Shown here piece after piece: positions 2,031 through 11,692 of a stretch of 11,692 nt of DNA (position 1 is the first letter of the stretch; each line of letters starts with the position of its first letter). Under the pieces are notes generated by a model that saw only the letters and a program-made list of their open reading frames with translations, did not search any database and had not been told where the DNA came from. Source of the stretch: Planctomycetota bacterium (GTDB taxonomy: Bacteria > Planctomycetota > GCA-002687715 > DRQF01); assembly GCA_015485455.1 (NCBI GenBank), contig WFTN01000592.1:1-11692 (forward strand). Reading direction: 5' to 3'. Position numbers and translations under genes: made by a program.

Positions 2031-3593
2031 ATGAAGCGACACTTCTTCAATCAAGTTCGAAATAGTCTGAAGCCAACCTCGTTCGGATTATTCTTCGCCT
2101 TGCTCCTTGGCTCTTGCGCAGCACCAGAAAACTTTGATGACGCAGTCCCATGGTATGTCGCCAGCGAAGGTGTTCATGATGCAGCAAGCCGGTTGGTGGA
2201 CGAGACGCCTTTTCTTCGTTTCAATGATTACGACCTCTATCGTTTCGAAAGACTCCTCGAACGCGAAAACGTTGACGCGAATTGGCGCGAAGCATTCGCT
2301 GACATCTTGGTGTCAGCAAATGCCATTGGCAATCACTTAGCCGCCTTCGAAATCGACCGTCTTCCTGATCCAATCGTCAACAAGTTGGCTAAGCACGGCC
2401 CAAGTACACAGGGCGACAATGCCCGCAAGTCGATTCGTAAACAGTGGTTGTCAAGATCATCAGACTGGCTCAAGAAATGCCAAGAAGAAAACGAAAAGAA
2501 GGATGACACAACCCTGTGGGAATATGCCGACAACCTTCATTCCAAGATTCAAGACTCCATCAAGGAAGAATCCAGCTTTCTTCGCGTCTTGACTCACCTG
2601 CCCTTAGTTCCTGTTTCACTCATCGCCGTTAGTAGCATCGAGAATGGTGAGTACTGGGGCCCGGCACCAGTTCGAGAGGATTTCAAGGAAGTGGCCGTGC
2701 TAACCCCGAGCCCCATCTCATCCGATCCTTCCGCTGATTGGCAACGTCTGCTCAAGCACGCCCCCGTTATCGTGCAACAGATTGCGCCAGATGCGACGTA
2801 TGACAAATCCATTGATCGCGTCGGCCATGTGATTCTTGAGCGAAACAAAAGCGGTGAGGTCATTGCAACAGTGGACACTTCAGAGCCCGCCGTTTACGCT
2901 CACACTGAATGGGCCGTTATTCAGGGCGAAACATTGCCCCAATTGGTTTACACCCTCATTTACCCAGAACACCCAGCCCTCAAGTCTCCTGATTTTGAAG
3001 CTGGCAAGATCGAGGTCATCATTCTAAGGATGACTTTGGACAAGTCAGGGCGACCAGCCATCTTCGAATCAGTCTATGCCTGTGGTTGCCACCACCGTAT
3101 TCGTGTCGCCCAGCATGTCGCACAGTGGGCCGGTCCTAACAAGCAAGAGCATCATCCGATGGAAGTGTGGCGAGACGGCGAACTCAAAGGAGCTCATGTA
3201 GTCGAAGACATTCCGGACAGTGACCCCAACGCTCCTGTTTGCCTCTACCAGTATGCCGGGTATCACATGAGTGGCTTGATTCAGATGACTAAGTCGCCGG
3301 TTGCGGACTACGTCAAAGTGAATTCCAGAAACCAGTATCGCCTCATTCCTTACGAAGAGTTGGAACACCAGAAATCCGGCAACGCCTATCTTAGCCTCTT
3401 CGACGATGATGGGCTCATCGTCGGCGCCGAACGAGCTGAGAGTTTTTGGCTAGCCGGTGCTGGTTTCTTTGCTGCCGGTCATCCCCGTGAACGAGGTACG
3501 CAAAGGATTCTCTTGGACAGCGAAGACTTCGGAGATCCAACCTTGTTGGATCATCTTCTGCACATCCCACATAAAATGGTGGCCGAGAAGTGA
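2031..3593 (+). CDS. Lipoprotein of unknown function with a CGCHH motif, 520 residues
   Basis: Not recognised as a characterised family. The start at 2031 is chosen over an in-frame ATG at 2019 because of the well-spaced GGAG. The N-terminus has a basic stretch, a hydrophobic core (about 18-26) and a lipobox LGSC with the lipidated Cys at residue 29, so the mature protein should be membrane-anchored in the periplasm. Residues 36-180 are charged and probably helical; about 290-350 look beta-rich, including a YTLIYPEHP stretch. A striking ACGCHHR at 350-356 is followed by more His and Cys (H362, H374, H375, H389, C404), suggesting a metal or haem site; that is inference. The last four bases overlap the GTG of the MMPL exporter gene, so the two are almost certainly co-translated. 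A role as a periplasmic partner of that exporter is plausible but unproven. Confidence 0.85.
   Translation: MKRHFFNQVRNSLKPTSFGLFFALLLGSCAAPENFDDAVPWYVASEGVHDAASRLVDETPFLRFNDYDLYRFERLLERENVDANWREAFADILVSANAIGNHLAAFEIDRLPDPIVNKLAKHGPSTQGDNARKSIRKQWLSRSSDWLKKCQEENEKKDDTTLWEYADNLHSKIQDSIKEESSFLRVLTHLPLVPVSLIAVSSIENGEYWGPAPVREDFKEVAVLTPSPISSDPSADWQRLLKHAPVIVQQIAPDATYDKSIDRVGHVILERNKSGEVIATVDTSEPAVYAHTEWAVIQGETLPQLVYTLIYPEHPALKSPDFEAGKIEVIILRMTLDKSGRPAIFESVYACGCHHRIRVAQHVAQWAGPNKQEHHPMEVWRDGELKGAHVVEDIPDSDPNAPVCLYQYAGYHMSGLIQMTKSPVADYVKVNSRNQYRLIPYEELEHQKSGNAYLSLFDDDGLIVGAERAESFWLAGAGFFAAGHPRERGTQRILLDSEDFGDPTLLDHLLHIPHKMVAEK
3534..3552 (+). repeat. Perfect 8-bp inverted repeat with 3-base loop near the end of the lipoprotein gene
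   Basis: GATCCAAC (3534-3541) and GTTGGATC (3545-3552) are perfect complements around CTT. The hairpin ends 37 bases before the start of the MMPL gene. It lacks a T tract, so it is not a terminator. It could tune coupling or mRNA stability, or be chance within coding sequence. Confidence 0.5.
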
Positions 3594-5782
3594 CGGGCCG
3601 TCAATCTCATGGCGCCCCTAAAGTTAGATACAATCTTCGACGACATGTTATTGCCGTTGCAATTCTTTCACTTCTACTCATAGCCCTCGCACACCCGTGG
3701 CAACTCAAGTTAGATAATTCCCTAGACATTTGGATTCAAGGCGCGCCCGGAGAGGCGCAATACCAAGAGTTCAAGAAGCGCTTCGGCTCTGATCGTTTCT
3801 TGTTGGCAAGTTGGTACGGGGACGACCTGTTCTCCAGGAACCACCTTGACGCAGCCGTAGATTTCTATGCCACATGCAAGACCTTTCCTCACGTCGAGCC
3901 CGCGAGTGTCTTTGGCGTCCCAACTCTTTGGAAGGAAATCAGAAACCACATCACCCCCCCTGAGTTTGCAGAACTGACAAAGCAAGACCCAGTCCTCCAA
4001 GGTTTGTATTGCGCGGAGGACGGTCAAGCTCTCGGATTGATGATACCAATGGTGCCAAACTTAGACCCCATCGAAGGGGCTGCATTGTGTCAAGAGGTTA
4101 GGAAAGCCTTGGCCGACTTTGGCTCGCAAATTGATTGCGAGACAGCACTCGTTGGCCCGAACGTCCTCAATGCCGCGCTGGATCATGGCAGCGCCCGGGA
4201 TGGCCAGATTCTATTCCCACTCCTCTTCGCCCTCAGCTCTCTATCGCTATTGGTCTACTTCCGAAAGCAGCTTGGTAGCGCCATCATGATTCTTGTCTGT
4301 AGTGGCCTGACGGTTGGTTTATCCCTGTCCGCTTACGCCTTCTTCCATCCGTCCCTTGACATGATCACCGTGACGATTCCAACCTTAGCTTGGATCCTGG
4401 CCCTGTCTCTCAATATTCACAGTCTCCACCGCCTCCAGACTCAAGACCAGACCAAGTCTATCTTAAAGGTCCTCAAGCCCAGCCTTTTGGCCGCATCCAC
4501 TACAGCCATCGGGTTTGCCGCCATCGGCGCCACGAGTGTCGGACCAGTCAGTTCCTTTGGGACGTTTGTTGGCGTTGGTGTCGTCATTTCTCTACTTCTG
4601 ACCATCACGATTCTGGCACCTTTAGCGCGCCCATCAACAAAAAACAAGAAAAGCCTCCCAAACTTGCCTGTTGTTGAGTCTTCAGTTGGACATGGCCACA
4701 AGAAAGCCATAATTGCCTTGGGAGGGTTTTTGGCAGTCTTGGCCTTTCTTCCGGCGCGTTCCATAAAAGCCGAATCACGGGTCCTGGAATTTCTACCGGA
4801 GTCTCATGCCATTCGCAGGGACTACGACCTCACCCGAACCCGGCTCGGAGGCGTTTCACCTATTGAATTGGACCTCGAGTTGCATCCCGGCGTAGAGGCA
4901 AGTCCTGCGATAAAAGAGATTGGGAGGCGCGCAAGACTGTTGGAAGCTATGCCTCACATAGCCAAAGTTTTCGGCATCGACCAGATAAGGCAACTGGTGG
5001 CCCGCTGGAGCATCATTTTCAAGTCACATCAAGTTCCTTTGTCACCTGATTTCCTGATTGCCGTCTCCAGAATGAAAGACCATTTCTCTCACAACGAAGG
5101 TCGCCACCAACGTGTCACCATACTTGTCGACGATGTATCCAGCCAAGTGACAAAGGATGTCTTGGGGCAAGTGCAAAAGTTATTCCCACCCAATGGTAGT
5201 CAAGGGGGTTTCAACACAGAGATTACGGGGACGATTCCACTGTTGAATGCAAGCCACGAAGAAATCTTGGCCGACGCGATTGAGAGCCTCATCATTGCAC
5301 TCATAGCGGCCATCGCAGCTGTACTCCTACTGACTCGGCAATTGGGAAGAGTCTCAGCGGTCATGCTCCCCATCTTGGCTCCGCCTCTTTCGGTGATGGC
5401 CTTTATGGGAATATTTGGCATCCCTCTCGACTTGGGGACAATGATGGTTGCTTCTGTCTCTGCAGGAATCGGCATTGACGACACTCTCCACATGCTAGCG
5501 GCCTACGGTGATGCGCGCAAAAGTCTGCCAGCTCTCGATGCACTGGCCTTAGCTCAACAAACTTGTGGCCAGGCCCTAATTGTGACCACCGCGGTGAACG
5601 TTACTGGGTTTGCTGTCCTGTGCTTGGCGAGCTTTCGGCCCATCCGGTGGTTCGGGGGGTTGACTGCTTTGGCACTGCTGACAGCATTGCTTGCGGACCT
5701 ACTTCTCTTGCCGGCGGCGCTTTATCTTTGGGACAAAAAGAGCAACACGCCTCCCCACCCATTGAATTCAGGAGCAGTTTAA
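3590..5782 (+). CDS. MMPL/COG1033 RND-superfamily exporter, 730 residues
   Basis: An integral membrane exporter of the RND superfamily, of the kind that moves lipids or other hydrophobic molecules with proton energy. The GTG start overlaps the previous stop as GTGA; no early in-frame ATG exists. Two homologous halves are visible. TM1 lies at about 19-34, then a periplasmic loop, then five helices at roughly 206-346. A second half begins with a helix at 372-390, then a loop, then five helices at 564-712. The second half carries GIGIDDTLH (626-634), the acidic-pair motif of proton relays in this family. The matching place in the first half reads LSLNIHSLH (272-280), with Asn instead of acidic residues. 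Length fits the family. It has no adaptor of the AcrA type nearby; its neighbours are a lipoprotein and acyl-type enzymes, which points to lipid export, though the substrate is unknown. Confidence 0.9.
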   Translation: MTGRQSHGAPKVRYNLRRHVIAVAILSLLLIALAHPWQLKLDNSLDIWIQGAPGEAQYQEFKKRFGSDRFLLASWYGDDLFSRNHLDAAVDFYATCKTFPHVEPASVFGVPTLWKEIRNHITPPEFAELTKQDPVLQGLYCAEDGQALGLMIPMVPNLDPIEGAALCQEVRKALADFGSQIDCETALVGPNVLNAALDHGSARDGQILFPLLFALSSLSLLVYFRKQLGSAIMILVCSGLTVGLSLSAYAFFHPSLDMITVTIPTLAWILALSLNIHSLHRLQTQDQTKSILKVLKPSLLAASTTAIGFAAIGATSVGPVSSFGTFVGVGVVISLLLTITILAPLARPSTKNKKSLPNLPVVESSVGHGHKKAIIALGGFLAVLAFLPARSIKAESRVLEFLPESHAIRRDYDLTRTRLGGVSPIELDLELHPGVEASPAIKEIGRRARLLEAMPHIAKVFGIDQIRQLVARWSIIFKSHQVPLSPDFLIAVSRMKDHFSHNEGRHQRVTILVDDVSSQVTKDVLGQVQKLFPPNGSQGGFNTEITGTIPLLNASHEEILADAIESLIIALIAAIAAVLLLTRQLGRVSAVMLPILAPPLSVMAFMGIFGIPLDLGTMMVASVSAGIGIDDTLHMLAAYGDARKSLPALDALALAQQTCGQALIVTTAVNVTGFAVLCLASFRPIRWFGGLTALALLTALLADLLLLPAALYLWDKKSNTPPHPLNSGAV
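5771..5774 (+). promoter_or_regulatory. Ribosome binding site setting the reductase start at 5782
   Basis: GGAG sits 7 bases before the ATG at 5782. That ATG shares its A with the exporter's stop codon (TAATG). The frame is open further upstream to 5563, but the site and the immediate GGTGFIG motif favour this start. Confidence 0.7.
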
Positions 5783-7263
5783 TGCCAGCGACAAACAAAG
5801 CCACGATTCTTCTCACCGGGGGCACTGGGTTTATTGGTGGCGAAGTTCTGCATCAACTCCAGAAAAACAACAACCAAGTACTCGCCATTGTGAGGGGAGA
5901 ACATCCGAAAGAGAGATTGGCGAGGCGGGGAGCCCTTCAAGGGTACGACTTCCCAGGTGCCAAGACGACTATTGTTTCCGGAGATGTTGGATTAGCTCAT
6001 TTCGGGAATCGTTCGAACATCTTGCTTCCTTGGCGAGGACGAATAAGCGCCCTTGTTCATGGGGCGGGATTGACATCTTTTGATTCAACTAGACGACGAG
6101 AATTGTTGCGCGTCAACTACGAAGGCGCCAAGAATGCTGCGCGCTTGGCAAGAGACTTGGGCTGCGACCGATTCATCTTAGTTAGCACTGCATTCTTGGG
6201 GGGCAAAGAAGGCCGTTTCATTCCAGAAACTCCGGTCGAACACCCGGGAGACTGGCTGTCCATCTACGAAGAATCGAAATATCGCGCAGAGATAGCTGTG
6301 GCCGCTATCCTGGCAAAAACTCAAACTCAGCTCGTGGTTCTGCGACCTGCCATCGTGGTGAATCATCAAGCATCGGGCTTCGCACTCAACAAAGAACATT
6401 TGCACAATTTGTGGCGCCCTCTCCACCGGCTTTCACGAGCCGGCCAGACTGTGCATGTGGACGCCCGCATTCGCGCCAATCCAAAGGGGCTCAAGAACAT
6501 GATCCCAGTGGACGCTGTTGGTCGCGCTTGTTTGGCTGTGATCAACAATCCCGATGCCACAGGATATTTCCATGCAGTAGCGCAACAACCGATAGCCCAC
6601 AGCAAGCTCATGGAGTTAACTCAACAAGTACTTGGACTCTCAGGTTTTCGTTTGACTGAAAAATGGCAAAACCCGAATCGTTTGGAACGCCTCATTGACG
6701 AGTCATTAGCTTCTTATCGCCATTACTTGAGCGTATCTGATCCAACCTTCGCTTGCAAACGCCTCAACAAAATCGTGCCCAACTGGAACGATCCTGTTGA
6801 TCTGAATTGGGATTTCATGAAAAGGGCCTTCGCCGCGTTTGCCAGGATGCCTTCAAGCGAAGAGCCTGGCCAACAAGACAGTGATGGTCTGGTTTCGAAC
6901 TACCACAAGAATCACTTAAGTCCGAAACTTGGTCAACAGCTCCTTCAAGGGAGGGAAGATGTGAACGCCCATTTCAATTTGGAAGTATTCGGCGGAAACA
7001 CGGGCAGGATTTCTGTGACTATCAAAGATGGTGCCATCTCGTCCGTTCAGAAAACCCACGACTCACGGGCTTCCGTTCTCTTTTGCATCGACCATTATTC
7101 TTTCGCCAAGATCATTGCCGGGCATCTATCACCAGTCCCTGCCTTTCTGGACGGGAGGGTGGACATCGAAGGCAACGTCGAAGAAGGACTCCGACTCGCC
7201 AGCATCCTCACTGATTTCTTTTCCTTACATCCCTACGTTCAATCTGGAGCCAAACATGCCTGA
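5782..7263 (+). CDS. NAD(P)-dependent thioester-reductase-like SDR fused to a C-terminal SCP2 lipid-carrier domain, 493 residues
   Basis: The N-terminal 350 residues are an extended short-chain dehydrogenase of the fatty acyl-CoA reductase/thioester reductase type. They show GGTGFIG (13-19) for nucleotide binding, HGAG (93-96), ILVSTAF (132-138) and the catalytic pair Y162/K166 in YEESK. Such enzymes reduce acyl thioesters to aldehydes or alcohols with NAD(P)H. Residues about 385-482 look like an SCP2 sterol-carrier fold, with HYSFAKIIAGHLSP (438-451), AFLDGRV (454-460) and IEG (462-464), which would bind a hydrophobic ligand. No transmembrane helix or signal peptide is seen, so it should act in the cytoplasm. 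The start follows a TAATG overlap with the exporter gene and a good GGAG. Fusion of reductase and lipid carrier suggests a bulky lipid-like substrate. The true substrate and whether the SDR is a reductase, epimerase or dehydrogenase are not shown by the sequence. Confidence 0.85.
   Translation: MPATNKATILLTGGTGFIGGEVLHQLQKNNNQVLAIVRGEHPKERLARRGALQGYDFPGAKTTIVSGDVGLAHFGNRSNILLPWRGRISALVHGAGLTSFDSTRRRELLRVNYEGAKNAARLARDLGCDRFILVSTAFLGGKEGRFIPETPVEHPGDWLSIYEESKYRAEIAVAAILAKTQTQLVVLRPAIVVNHQASGFALNKEHLHNLWRPLHRLSRAGQTVHVDARIRANPKGLKNMIPVDAVGRACLAVINNPDATGYFHAVAQQPIAHSKLMELTQQVLGLSGFRLTEKWQNPNRLERLIDESLASYRHYLSVSDPTFACKRLNKIVPNWNDPVDLNWDFMKRAFAAFARMPSSEEPGQQDSDGLVSNYHKNHLSPKLGQQLLQGREDVNAHFNLEVFGGNTGRISVTIKDGAISSVQKTHDSRASVLFCIDHYSFAKIIAGHLSPVPAFLDGRVDIEGNVEEGLRLASILTDFFSLHPYVQSGAKHA
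7246..7249 (+). promoter_or_regulatory. Ribosome binding site setting the ANL gene start at 7256
   Basis: GGAG lies 6 bases before the ATG at 7256. The frame is open upstream to 7028, but that part only overlaps the SCP2 domain of the previous gene out of frame and is not protein-like. Confidence 0.65.
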
Positions 7264-8182
7264 TGGTCGGATAAGAAACTCAGAGAACGCCGCATCCTAC
7301 ACGGCACAGTCCAAGAACTTTTCTCAAAATCTTCGTGAACGCCCTTGGTCCGATTTCGTCGAAGCGGGAACCCTTGAAACCAACAATCTTCTCATCGTTG
7401 AGACCGGCGGTACTACTGGGCGCCCATCCTCAGTAGCCTACACTCTTGAAGACTTTCATCTCAACTTCGTTAAGCCGTTCTTGGAATCTCTAGGGGAGGC
7501 CAAAGAGAGCTTTGAAGGGCCGTGGCTCTATGCTGGGCCCACTGGACCTCATGCCATTGGTTATGGCGCTGATGGTTGTGCTACTGCTTTGACGGGCCAC
7601 TCTCCTTACCGTGTCGATTTGGATACCCGCTGGCTGCAAAAGCTCGAGCAAGGCATTGCCCGAGATCGCTACTTGAACCATGTTGTTGAACAGTGCTTAG
7701 ACATTCTCGCTGTGCGCCCTGTCCAAGTTCTATTCTCAACGCCACCATTGCTTCAGCTTCTGGGCTTGGCCATGGCAGAAGGCCTTCGAGATGCCGTCCA
7801 AGGGATTCACTGGGGTGGCGTCCTCACCAAAGCTGAAGAGATCTCGGCTTTGAAACAGCTCTATCCGAACGCAGTTTTGCGCTCCGGATTCGGCAATAGC
7901 TTAGTCGGCCTCTTCCCTGAAATAGGTCAACACCGGGGCCTACCTATTTACGGCCATGTCGGAGGATCTCACGGCTTTGATGTAGTCGATGAAGATGGCA
8001 ATCCAACGGCCGAAGGTGAGGAAGGCTGCTTGGCATTCTCTCGCCATGATTCTTGTGCACATTTCACGAGGTTACGAGACCGTGATCGTGCCCTCTCTCT
8101 GGTCTTAGAAGATGGCCAACTCGGATTCCAGCCTATTCTCAATAGCAAGATTCATGACGCAACAAAGAAAGTCATCTATTGA
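7256..8182 (+). CDS. Minimal ANL-superfamily (AMP-binding) protein without C-terminal domain, 308 residues
   Basis: Resembles the core of adenylate-forming enzymes that activate a carboxylate with ATP. It starts 8 bases inside the reductase gene. ETGGTTGRP (49-57) is the family's phosphate-binding loop, but the Lys usual just after it is Ser (58-59). GFGNSLVGLFPE (211-222) sits where the YGxTE-type adenine loop is expected, and RLRDRDRA (272-279) where the ribose-binding Asp motif is expected. After this only about 30 residues remain, so the mobile C-terminal domain with its catalytic Lys is absent. Canonical enzymes are 430-600 residues; the N-terminal lead before the loop is short as well. 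A known precedent for an ANL protein lacking the C-terminal domain is EhpF of phenazine biosynthesis. It may make an acyl- or aryl-adenylate for the neighbouring reductase, or only bind such a ligand. Catalysis is uncertain. Confidence 0.75.
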   Translation: MPDGRIRNSENAASYTAQSKNFSQNLRERPWSDFVEAGTLETNNLLIVETGGTTGRPSSVAYTLEDFHLNFVKPFLESLGEAKESFEGPWLYAGPTGPHAIGYGADGCATALTGHSPYRVDLDTRWLQKLEQGIARDRYLNHVVEQCLDILAVRPVQVLFSTPPLLQLLGLAMAEGLRDAVQGIHWGGVLTKAEEISALKQLYPNAVLRSGFGNSLVGLFPEIGQHRGLPIYGHVGGSHGFDVVDEDGNPTAEGEEGCLAFSRHDSCAHFTRLRDRDRALSLVLEDGQLGFQPILNSKIHDATKKVIY

Positions 8183-8868
8183 TGGTCTCTATGATTCAAG
8201 AACGCGTAGATTTTCGTAGCCACCATATGACTGTGATTCTGAGCTATCCAGAAAAAGGCTCTATTTGCTTCGGAGCGACTCTCTTCCCTCCCCACCCGGA
8301 CCTGGGTGGTAGCCGCGACCACCCTCTCCTCATGGCTGTGGCCGAGACGGTGGTGAAAGCTGGAGGCATAGCACTACGCTACGAGTATCCGAATCGATCA
8401 ATTCAAGAAACGAAGCGCAATGGTCCAGTGATTCCCGACGATGAATTCCCCAACCTCTTGGCACCAACTTTTTCAACCCTTGCGTTGATGAGGAAAACCA
8501 TCCCTCAGGGCAAACCCCATTTTGCCTTTGGTTATTCCCTGGGGGCTTGCGTGATGGCGCAGTTCCCCGAAGTGCTTCCTTGGCAAAGACCTGTCTTCGT
8601 TGCTCCGCCCCTGGCGAAACAAAAGTTGAGACCACTGACGAAGAAAGGAGAAGACGCCTTGGTCATCTTGGGCGATTGCGATTTTTCATGTCAAGAAGCG
8701 GATGCCCGTGAATGGCTTTGGAACTCCACTCCGACTCACAAGGACAAACGAACTCTACACATGCTCCCCGGTACTGATCATTTCCTTCGAGGGGAAGAAA
8801 ACTTCATTGCCGAACTAACCCTGGCCCATTGGAGAATAGAAAATGACCCCATCCTGCCCCAGCAATGA
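8182..8868 (+). CDS. Small alpha/beta hydrolase, 228 residues
   Basis: A cytoplasmic serine hydrolase of the alpha/beta fold, with no signal peptide or membrane helix. The likely triad is S119 in the nucleophile elbow GYSLG (117-121), D165 in ILGDCD (162-167) and H200 in GTDHF (197-201). PHPDLGGS (37-44) matches the oxyanion-side HPHP-GG motif common in small dienelactone-hydrolase-like or acyl-esterase families. The ATG at 8182 overlaps the stop of the ANL gene (TGATG). A second in-frame ATG at 8191 is possible, and neither has a strong ribosome binding site, so expression probably relies on coupling. In this operon a thioesterase or esterase acting on the activated or reduced product is reasonable, but the substrate cannot be read from the sequence. 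Confidence 0.85.
   Translation: MVSMIQERVDFRSHHMTVILSYPEKGSICFGATLFPPHPDLGGSRDHPLLMAVAETVVKAGGIALRYEYPNRSIQETKRNGPVIPDDEFPNLLAPTFSTLALMRKTIPQGKPHFAFGYSLGACVMAQFPEVLPWQRPVFVAPPLAKQKLRPLTKKGEDALVILGDCDFSCQEADAREWLWNSTPTHKDKRTLHMLPGTDHFLRGEENFIAELTLAHWRIENDPILPQQ
8831..8834 (+). promoter_or_regulatory. Ribosome binding site favouring the MqnD-like start at 8843
   Basis: GGAG stands 8 bases before the ATG at 8843, inside the end of the hydrolase gene. The alternative in-frame ATG at 8870 lacks a site, though it lies closer to where family homology begins. Confidence 0.6.
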
Positions 8869-9802
8869 CATGCCGCCCAAGCGTATAACCTATTCCGTGG
8901 CACACACGCCTGACACAGATGACGCCTTTTATTTTTCGGCCCTAGCCCATGGAACTATCACCCCAGCAAACTCGGCAATAATCAATTTCCATACTGGCCA
9001 CATTGCCCAACTAAATCGTGATGCTCTCGATGGCGTCTACGACATCACCGCCATCAGCGCAGCATTCTTTCCACGAGTTTTCGACTCGTACCGCATCTTG
9101 ACCTGTGGCACCAGTGTTGGCCGAGGTTATGGGCCCCGCCTCGCCGTCGCCCAGGGCTTGGAGGATGACGACCTTGCTGACCGCCGTGTTGGCATTGCCG
9201 CAGAAGGAACGACCGGAGCCTTCCTGCTCAAGTGGTATTATCCCCATGCGATCCCAGTTGAATGCTGCCATCTAGAAATGCGCGATCTTGTCGCTCAAGG
9301 AGAATTGGACGGAGCAGTTCTTATCCACGAACAACTCTTGTTGACGCGGCCTGAACATGAGCGCATCTCGATCAAGGAATGTTTGGGTGCCCGCTGGTGC
9401 CACGACCAAAACCTCCCCCTCCCCGTAGGGCTCAATGTGATCCACAAGAGAATCCCACTGACTCAAGCGAAAGCGCTCTGCCAAGATTTCCAGGACTCTC
9501 TTCAATACGGATTCGACAATCCCGGAGAAACACGAGAACGAGTCGGATGCTGGGATCATGGTGCCATGGATGAATTTATCCAGAAATTCGCCAACCAGGA
9601 TTCTCTCGCCTTGGCCCCAGACGTCCGTCAAGGATTGGTCACCCTATTGGATCAAGTCGCCAAGATAGAAAACAGGAACACTCTTCGCCTTCCCGAAATT
9701 ATTGACGGCCACGATTGCGATCCCCGATCCGGGGCACCAGCTTTCGGCCGATCTGACGGAGCGTCCAAAATCTGGCCGACTGGACCAAAAACCAAAGAAT
9801 AG
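8843..9802 (+). CDS. mqnD: MqnD-family protein (1,4-dihydroxy-6-naphthoate synthase type), 319 residues
   Basis: The family has a periplasmic-binding-protein-like fold and, as MqnD, converts cyclic dehypoxanthine futalosine to 1,4-dihydroxy-6-naphthoate in the futalosine route to menaquinone. Visible landmarks are HTPDTDDAF (21-29) in place of the classical SPCPNDTF, YDITAIS (66-72), GYGP (95-98), EGTTGAFLLK (121-130), IHE (161-163) with the His that acts as the catalytic base in MqnD, and LPLPVGLN (191-198). There is no signal peptide, which argues against a transporter binding protein. It overlaps the hydrolase gene by 26 bases. The chosen start has GGAG; Met at 8870 is the alternative. The last 35 or so residues are a low-homology tail rich in Gly, Pro and Ser. 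The related enzyme MqnA or an unassigned paralogue is possible, but the His favours MqnD. Confidence 0.75.
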   Translation: MTPSCPSNDMPPKRITYSVAHTPDTDDAFYFSALAHGTITPANSAIINFHTGHIAQLNRDALDGVYDITAISAAFFPRVFDSYRILTCGTSVGRGYGPRLAVAQGLEDDDLADRRVGIAAEGTTGAFLLKWYYPHAIPVECCHLEMRDLVAQGELDGAVLIHEQLLLTRPEHERISIKECLGARWCHDQNLPLPVGLNVIHKRIPLTQAKALCQDFQDSLQYGFDNPGETRERVGCWDHGAMDEFIQKFANQDSLALAPDVRQGLVTLLDQVAKIENRNTLRLPEIIDGHDCDPRSGAPAFGRSDGASKIWPTGPKTKE

Positions 9803-10003: not shown

Positions 10004-10498
10004 AGTGGCGAAAGCGAAAAGCTCTTTGACGAGTTTTAGTATTCGGCCAAGAGCTGGAAAAAGAAAAAACGCCGCATTGTGGTCAAAGCAGAAGTCACCC
10101 GAAACAAAGATCGCGAGCCACGGGACAATCCGCATTTTATCGTCACCAATCTTAGGCTGGTGCCAAGGAATATCTACGCTCTCTACTGTGAACGAGAAGA
10201 TTGCGAAAACCGGGTCAAGGAGATGAAGATCGACTTGGAGTCCGGAAGCACAAGCTGCAACGCATTTGATGCCAATCAAATGCGTCTAACCACGACCGCG
10301 ATGGCCTTCGTCTTAATGCAAGAACTAAGAGCTGACGCCAAAGGCACTCAATGGCAAAGAGCAACTGTCCCCAGCATTCGCTGGCGACTATTGAAGATCA
10401 GCGCACGATTCGTTGAGTCAACTAGGCGTATTGTGATGCACATGCCAAAGTCATTTGGGCTCAAGCACCTATTCGCCCAACTTGCCGTCAGTCCGTAG
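10004..10498 (+). pseudogene. IS1380-family transposase, C-terminal remnant with in-frame TAG
   Basis: From 10004 the frame reads SGESEKLFDEF, then TAG at 10037-10039, then YSAKSWKKKRRIVVKAE and on to a stop ending at 10498. Family hallmarks are the RRIVVKAE stretch, NPHFIVTNL, the CEREDCENRVKE stretch holding the Glu expected as the third acidic catalytic residue, DLESGSTSC, ANQMRLTTTAMAFVLMQ and a closing RWRLLKISARFVESTRRI. Full IS1380 transposases are about 430-460 residues; roughly the last 165 remain, and the N-terminal and central parts with the two catalytic Asp residues are absent. The TAG could derive from CAG by one transition. A late frame restart at 10079 (GTG) is not expected to be functional. 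The element is dead. Confidence 0.85.
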
Positions 10499-11039: not shown

Positions 11040-11692
11040 ATGAAATGGATTACGCTATGTTCGTTGTTGGTACTTTTATCTCCAAATTGGATGGTTGCTC
11101 AAGTCGCCACTTGCCCACCAAGGGGTGACGATCAATATGGCGTAAATGCTTGCTGCACGACGCCACCGATGCCTGCATTCCAGATCCCCGTAATCGACCC
11201 AAACACAGGTCTTACGCAAACGGCACAGTGGGCCTACATCGCCGACTGTGGGACGGTGGTGGAAGAAGAAATGACCATCAATATCAAAATGGCAACGAAC
11301 CCTACGAATTTCCCTGGAAACCTCTTCGGGATGATTGTCTGTGATGATGTCTTGTTTCAAATCACTGCGACATCGACTGACCCAGGAAGCGCTCTATCAT
11401 TTACCATTGGAAACAGCCTAATATCGCAGGACAGAGTTGACTGGCTTCTAGGCAAGTACGTTCGTACTTGGCGGGCGGCCGATGTCGAAGGCTATGATCG
11501 TCAGTTCTATCGATTTCTCATCGCTGGCGATGCAAACTTTCTTGGAGGTAGTCAGCCGACACAGGTGCCTCCTTGCCAATCGAATTTCACTCAAGTCATG
11601 ATGAATGGTTATATCGACCTAAGCTGCCAGTCCTATATCAATGGTACGACACCATTGCCTCAGAACTTCACAGCCAGCTTGGTTTTGACTCA
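11040..11692 (+). CDS. Secreted Cys-rich protein of unknown function, N-terminal 217 residues (3' end outside window)
   Basis: The frame is open from the ATG at 11040 to the right edge, so the gene is truncated there. Residues 1-20 form a classical signal peptide: MKW, a hydrophobic core to about residue 13, and a likely cleavage after MVA (18-20). There is no lipobox. The mature part has seven Cys in 197 residues (25, 38, 39, 70, 101, 179, 196), including a CC pair, and is rich in Thr, Asn, Pro and Asp. This fits an exported beta-rich, disulfide-stabilised protein. I recognise no domain. It is separated from the operon by degraded mobile DNA and is probably an independent unit. Longer homologues, if any, would show whether a surface-anchoring or sorting domain lies beyond the edge. 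Confidence 0.75.
   Translation, partial: MKWITLCSLLVLLSPNWMVAQVATCPPRGDDQYGVNACCTTPPMPAFQIPVIDPNTGLTQTAQWAYIADCGTVVEEEMTINIKMATNPTNFPGNLFGMIVCDDVLFQITATSTDPGSALSFTIGNSLISQDRVDWLLGKYVRTWRAADVEGYDRQFYRFLIAGDANFLGGSQPTQVPPCQSNFTQVMMNGYIDLSCQSYINGTTPLPQNFTASLVLT

Follow-up and report, generated by a model that had tools for sequence, protein, structure and literature searches.

A conserved gene cluster in which an EhpF-type enzyme can stand beside an MqnD paralogue of a third PF02621 clade

Introduction

Which process is served by an operon that combines a lipoprotein, an MMPL-type membrane protein, a short-chain dehydrogenase/reductase (SDR) fused to an SCP2 domain, an adenylate-forming (ANL) enzyme, an alpha/beta hydrolase and a homologue of MqnD? 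Six such genes (g1 to g6) occupy positions 2031–9802 of the 11,692-nucleotide (nt) stretch analysed here, contig WFTN01000592.1 of the Planctomycetota assembly GCA_015485455.1, which is called the window throughout. An earlier note on this DNA had proposed that a hydrophobic acid is activated and reduced and that the product is exported with the help of the lipoprotein. At the level of protein families this description still appears sound (EhpF-type ANL enzyme, SDR with Y-x3-K, SCP2, MMPL and lipoprotein), but the acid is not necessarily a fatty acid. MqnD releases 1,4-dihydroxy-6-naphthoate, a fused aromatic acid. A futalosine-type aromatic acid is indicated because the only solved relative of the ANL enzyme belongs to phenazine biosynthesis and because g6 is a distinct MqnD paralogue, here termed MqnD3. 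With somewhat less than even confidence, we favour the interpretation that the operon is a biosynthesis-and-transport unit around carboxylate activation and reduction, in which a naphthoate-type acid made by MqnD3 is activated and reduced and its product moved.

Operon organization and the activating enzyme

The six open reading frames (ORFs) lie head to tail on the forward strand and were confirmed as real. The overlaps at the g1/g2, g2/g3, g3/g4 and g4/g5 junctions (4, 1, 8 and 1 nt) are firm. A fifth overlap, read earlier as 26 nt between g5 and g6, is doubtful: it requires a start of g6 at 8843, whereas the ATG at 8870 would leave a 1-nt gap. The latter, one base past the g5 stop, is probably the true start, since the N-terminus then resembles those of aligned homologues. 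Profile searches agreed with the earlier family assignments and refined two of them, g4 to an EhpF-type enzyme and g6 to a distinct MqnD paralogue.

By its profile matches, g4 (308 amino acids, aa; 7256–8182, forward strand) is an EhpF-type ANL enzyme. The profile of its family matched EhpF over the full length of the latter (E 1.3e-50), both ending in the same C-terminal tyrosine, and g4 alone matched EhpF with E 1.2e-15, the sole match among solved structures at E ≤ 1. The tyrosine is invariant in the family alignment (A1). The Pfam AMP-binding model (PF00501) was matched with 15.8 bits only, below its cut-off of 29.9. g4 aligns to EhpF residues 64–341 and has neither the first ~63 residues of EhpF nor a C-terminal ANL domain; a protein with 59% identity to it (P0010) is equally short. 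EhpF, from the phenazine cluster of Pantoea/Enterobacter agglomerans (PDB 3hgu, 3hgv, 3l2k), has the short ANL architecture in common with the g4 family and is an acid-activating enzyme in the pathway of a redox-active aromatic compound. It is one of the enzymes (EhpF–O) that convert phenazine-1,6-dicarboxylate to D-alanylgriseoluteic acid, griseoluteic acid being 6-hydroxymethyl phenazine-1-carboxylate, i.e. the precursor with one carboxyl reduced (PMC3175449). Unlike EhpF in its setting, g4 is fixed beside an SDR-SCP2 reductase, an MMPL protein and MqnD3, and no phenazine genes were found among the window proteins.

The MqnD3 clade

The gene g6 (319 aa; 8843–9802, forward strand, with ATG 8870 as the probable start) matched PF02621 with 155.7 bits (cut-off 26), and g6 and the other MqnD3 proteins keep the IHE, S, N and TT positions that align with solved MqnD. 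Phylogenetic trees placed MqnD3 in a third clade, apart from MqnA and from other MqnD proteins, with 16 rows in a 60-row tree (support 100/98) and 17 rows in an 81-row tree (100/99). Four radical-SAM rows and duplicates had been dropped from the trees, and three long-branch MqnA rows also from the larger one. In neither tree did g6 group with the MqnD proteins of the same genomes, which argues against g6 being its genome's ordinary MqnD, though the g6 row is long-branched and the ordinary MqnD rows do not form one well-supported clade. The window genome encodes three PF02621 proteins, on contigs C442, C264 and C592 (g6), and two sister genomes that have no g4 relative (G001, G002) encode two each.

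MqnD3 was carried by 16 genomes, 13 of which also have an MqnD outside the clade (none was seen in G396, G413 and G415). All but one of the 17 MqnD3 rows sit in loci with the ANL gene cluster. The exception, in genome G139, disproves the idea that MqnD3 occurs only with the ANL enzyme: MqnD3 lies there ~107 nt behind an 879-aa protein with AMP-binding, peptidyl carrier protein (PCP) and thioesterase parts (L289, 6267–9991). Two unrelated architectures thus place MqnD3 next to an acid-activating enzyme and an alpha/beta-hydrolase, the one in G139 having been seen once; a search of the class for further pairs of this kind returned one of 14 genomes, G139 itself. The G139 pair could possibly be a two-gene naphthoate pathway of its own. 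In a sample of 392 genomes of the window's phylum, scores at the level of MqnD3 (≥300 bits) were reached in four, three of which have a strong ANL match.

Other futalosine pathway genes also occur near the cluster. Six genomes of Auribacter, Victivallaceae and Hydrogenedentota (G392–G395, G401, G402) have two PF02621 copies each, both on the contig with the ANL cluster, which also bears two strong radical-SAM matches of the MqnC/E type. Two MqnD3 genes stand in tandem within one cluster in locus L095 (10931–12751). In loci L111 (G399) and L112 (G398), mqnA and a double radical-SAM ORF with two MqnC/E-type matches adjoin the cluster, and the genomes have no MqnD.

Conservation of the gene cluster

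When the 392 genomes of the phylum were searched with g4, matches at the general cut-off (E ≤ 1e-12) were found in 120 genomes, and 33 of these, the window's own included, formed a strong group (E ≤ 7e-27). The loci examined were 21 from the 32 other strong-match genomes and 19 with weaker matches. Another window family, or more than one, was detected (tblastn, E ≤ 1e-4) in 20 of the 21 strong loci and in none of the 19 weak ones. When contigs of named genomes were scanned with alignment A1, 140 stretches were picked up and 139 of them confirmed; the same scan with g6 alone as the query gave no match. The counts below refer to the best 80 loci, which, as labelled, belong to Planctomycetota (with the anammox genera Brocadia, Kuenenia and Scalindua), Desulfobulbaceae and relatives, Hydrogenedentota, Lentisphaerae, Omnitrophota, Sumerlaeia and Auribacter. 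Desulforhopalus singaporensis DSM 12130 (L127) is a named strain that carries the cluster.

Gene-family communities rested on mechanically called ORFs, and some ANL genes were lost from them to longer antisense ORFs; for this reason, profile counts were used instead. Since the profiles were built from the same loci, the counts measure presence and not independent discovery. The reductase was detected in 69 of the 80 loci, the hydrolase in 60, a class III aminotransferase in 51, MMPL in 46 and a U32 protein in 37; at ≥200 bits the numbers were 62, 48, 47, 46 and 36, and the seven reductase matches below that score may be other SDRs or SCP2 pieces. These five families were always on the strand of the ANL gene. 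The lipoprotein was found in 24 loci (on the ANL strand in 23) and a pentahaem cytochrome in 23. Absences are weak evidence, because many loci end at contig ends. Of the 80 loci, L095 contains all six window families, as does a further locus, L043; L114 contains none of the main partner families. As the families stay together as same-strand neighbours across lineages and were not found scattered in relatives, the earlier expectation that the genes serve one process is supported.

The aminotransferase and the U32 protein, regular in relatives, are both absent from the window. Multihaem cytochromes adjoin the cluster in anammox, Desulfobulbaceae, Phycisphaerales and Sumerlaeia loci. Behind the cluster in anammox loci (L157, L158, L160 and others) lie cytochrome b genes, together with genes for a pentahaem cytochrome and for decahaem proteins that are partly NapC-like; the pentahaem family has exactly five CxxCH motifs in all 25 members. 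In L104 the cluster is preceded by an ORF (5314–7593) whose C-terminal half contains an ArsS-type radical-SAM domain, and a similar family was seen in ten loci.

No paper identifiable as describing the cluster was found among the Creative Commons-licensed papers in PubMed Central, and the word MqnD does not occur in the available portion of the main text of a 2026 survey of bacterial quinone pathways (PMC13386864). The gene cluster is apparently undescribed, as the earlier note had supposed, and its combination of genes, its distribution and the MqnD3 clade appear to be new. Already known are cluster-borne mqn genes that feed an acid-activating enzyme (PM100117) and EhpF-type activation (phenazines).

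Reductase, hydrolase and transport genes

The gene g3 (5782–7263, forward strand) encodes a thioester-reductase-type SDR domain (about residues 8–290) and a C-terminal SCP2 domain (PF02036; about residues 391–476). The SDR part exceeded the cut-off of NAD_binding_4 (PF07993; 87.7 against 20.1 bits) and fell short of the curated cut-off of NCBIfam TIGR01746 (82.1 against 213.35 bits). Its best match among solved structures was the MxaA R domain (E 1.5e-10), and the SCP2 part matched SCP2 of 17bHSD4. The reductase family keeps the T-G-x-x-G-x-x-G motif, and Y-x3-K is invariant in all 11 aligned proteins. MxaA-type terminal reductase (R) domains and carboxylic acid reductases follow a similar logic of activation and NAD(P)H-dependent reduction; here, in contrast, the steps would be divided between separate polypeptides, with SCP2 fused to the reductase instead. 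No carrier-protein domain was found in g3 or g4. The small alpha/beta hydrolase g5 (228 aa; 8182–8868, forward strand) has the nucleophile motif G-Y-S-L-G, matched solved structure 2i3d (E 2.7e-5) and remained below the Pfam cut-off of Abhydrolase_11.

The lipoprotein g1 (520 aa; 2031–3593, forward strand; 524 aa from an in-frame ATG at 2019) has the lipobox LLLGSC with Cys29, a helical N-terminal half and a conserved CGC motif. No Pfam or NCBIfam family matched it. In a predicted model, its C-terminal domain (about residues 229–507) resembles the beta-sandwich of NLP (NEP1-like, NPP1) proteins such as PDB 5nnw and 3gnz, as judged with VIA-align. Foldseek gave no match to g1 at E ≤ 0.001, and with the C-terminal domain alone 3gnz ranked first (E 0.016). 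Only the predicted fold is shared with NLP proteins: g1 is a membrane-anchored lipoprotein with neither an NPP1 family match (Pfam) nor the NLP signature heptapeptide, and is not a member of that family. The MMPL/RND-type membrane protein g2 (730 aa; 3590–5782, forward strand, GTG start) matched PF03176 with 57.9 bits (cut-off 20.5); its best NCBIfam model, HAE3, was matched below its cut-off.

Proposed function

What follows on substrate, chemistry and transport direction is inferred throughout. MqnD3 (g6) would end a futalosine-type sequence and release 1,4-dihydroxy-6-naphthoate or a close analogue, as suggested by its family and kept motifs. The carboxylate of that acid would be adenylated by g4, in keeping with its kinship to EhpF. 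The activated acyl group, taken over by g3 directly or via a thioester or acyl-enzyme, would be reduced with NAD(P)H to an aldehyde or alcohol, from which the class III aminotransferase of most relatives could next form an amine. The hydrolase g5 might transfer the acyl group or clear misloaded ones. The SCP2 domain would hold the hydrophobic intermediate, and g2 and g1 would carry the product, presumably a modified naphthoquinone-type compound, outward.

A comparable branch is that of PM100117/PM100118 (gon) in Streptomyces caniferus, the only one found described in the literature covered. The PM100117 cluster contains mqnA, C, E and D copies of its own, along with an AMP ligase for which activation of the 6-naphthoate has been proposed; deletion of an mqn gene or of the AMP-ligase gene affects the naphthoquinone part, and deletion of the cluster mqnD lowers production, a second mqnD partly substituting for it (PMC4763440). 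The window genome likewise has an mqn paralogue (g6) beside an acid-activating enzyme (g4) and a further MqnD elsewhere, on C442. The large gon cluster makes a polyketide and contains ketosynthases, acyl carrier proteins (ACPs) and sugar genes, all of them absent from the window, where a reductase and lipid-transport genes are found. An aryl-polyene or polyketide cluster was rejected, as the earlier note had judged, since no ketosynthase or ACP was found among the window proteins scanned with Pfam. If the naphthoate interpretation is true, a second branch of primary menaquinone chemistry would feed a specialised product in anammox, sulphur-cycling and sediment-carbon-cycling lineages, and the constant group of 'unknown' genes in those genomes would gain a testable function.

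Several observations weigh against this interpretation. MqnD3 was found in a minority of the loci (15 of 80, on the ANL strand in 14; a cut-off of 250 bits gave 16, one of which, L162 with 251 bits, fell into the ordinary MqnD group in the trees). The core without MqnD3 is commoner than the core with it, and the anammox and Desulfobulbaceae loci have the core but no MqnD3. Some cluster genomes are without MqnD: G377 (93% complete) has no PF02621 copy, the sole copy of G095 (99% complete, one contig) falls into the MqnA clade, and so does the one copy each of G398 and G399. In G139, conversely, no other cluster gene lies within 19.5 kb of MqnD3, and no ANL relative was found at E ≤ 1e-12. Both g4, with its short N-terminus, and g6, with a branch length of 1.6, are divergent in the window. 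The window genome (77% complete) has no close aminotransferase, with three weak hits of at best 70 bits, which leaves the amine step unsupported there. The exact step of EhpF is reportedly proposed and not proven. Finally, MMPL and SCP2 suit lipids at least as well as naphthoates. Because some cluster genomes are without MqnD, a naphthoate, if it is the right substrate, may apply to the subtype of the window alone, and lipids could be the substrate in the remaining loci.

A more specific version of the naphthoate interpretation, which we regard as rather unlikely, is that the cluster makes exported redox-active carriers of the naphthoquinone type (hydroxymethyl-, formyl- or aminomethyl-naphthoquinone, or a lipid conjugate), formed without O2 from futalosine intermediates and used together with multihaem cytochromes. 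Such carriers would play in anaerobes the part that phenazine electron shuttles play elsewhere, with the EhpF step in common.

Alternative interpretations

An ANL enzyme, a reductase and a hydrolase make up the functional trio of LuxE, LuxC and LuxD, which would fit a fatty substrate. The ANL enzyme would then activate a long-chain acid, the SDR would reduce it to an aldehyde or alcohol, the hydrolase would act like LuxD, and SCP2 and MMPL would carry the fatty product (an alcohol, an amine or an ether-lipid precursor), with MqnD3 as a passenger or in another role. SCP2, MMPL and the lipoprotein suit lipids, the MqnD3-free core is common in anammox and Desulfobulbaceae loci, and the aminotransferase family, one of whose NCBIfam matches is PigE, would accept an aldehyde. 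The likeness to the LuxCDE fatty acid reductase is, however, functional only, with an activator, a reductase and an alpha/beta hydrolase in both: the window reductase is an SDR, and no LuxC, LuxD or LuxE Pfam model matched the window proteins at E ≤ 1, so that membership of LuxCDE was rejected. The ANL enzyme is nearest to EhpF and not to fatty-acid ligases or LuxE, and a fatty substrate leaves unexplained why MqnD3 lies in the operon in 14 same-strand loci and why mqnA, C and E copies stand beside the cluster. We consider a fatty substrate less likely than a naphthoate, though a serious candidate; even with it, the cluster would be a conserved, apparently unnamed activation-reduction-export unit.

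Modification of a membrane quinone appears improbable. It would involve ring hydroxylation of menaquinone by U32 proteins with SCP2, in the manner of UbiU-UbiV-UbiT, and carboxyl reduction by the ANL enzyme and SDR, giving a new respiratory lipid quinone that MMPL distributes between membranes. In its favour, an SCP2 domain is common to UbiT and g3, the U32 proteins of relatives match TrhP and UbiU models, cytochrome b and NapC-like or pentahaem cytochromes are also encoded in anammox loci, and UbiA-type proteins were found in 17 of the 18 cluster genomes searched. On the other hand, the U32 gene is missing from the window, and the matches of the relatives' U32 proteins are below the curated cut-offs of both UbiU and TrhP. 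Among the families that recur in the cluster, neither a prenyltransferase nor a UbiD-type gene was noted, and the Victivallaceae genome G393 (completeness not known) has no UbiA match, which speaks against a prenylated quinone there.

It is more doubtful still that MqnD3 is a redundant MqnD for the ordinary menaquinone supply and stands in the operon for no chemical reason. Membership of PF02621 and the kept motifs speak in favour of this; against it stand the separate 17-row clade with 16 rows in ANL-cluster loci, the MqnD outside that clade in 13 of the 16 genomes, and the restriction to two PF02621 copies in the two sister genomes without the ANL gene.

Hopanoid tailoring, in which the aminotransferase, an HpnB-like GT2 protein and an HpnN-like MMPL protein would act on bacteriohopanepolyols, is highly implausible. 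In its favour, the L043 GT2 matches HpnB and g2 matches HpnN models, all below curated cut-offs. It was rejected as a general function, since a strong squalene-hopene cyclase match (E ≤ 1e-100) was found in only seven of the 18 cluster genomes searched and no cyclase match at all in G402, G406 and G407; moreover, hopanoids are not known to need an acid-activating step.

Other features of the window

The window is the entire contig C592 of a genome in 614 contigs, and the flanks of the operon end at the contig edges. A putative secreted protein with no family match, truncated at the contig end, is encoded at 11040–11690, downstream of the C-terminal remnant of an IS1380 transposase (10079–10498). 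Upstream of the operon, positions 1–1667 encode a CusA/CzcA-type RND metal-efflux pump, of which the contig edge leaves the C-terminal half.

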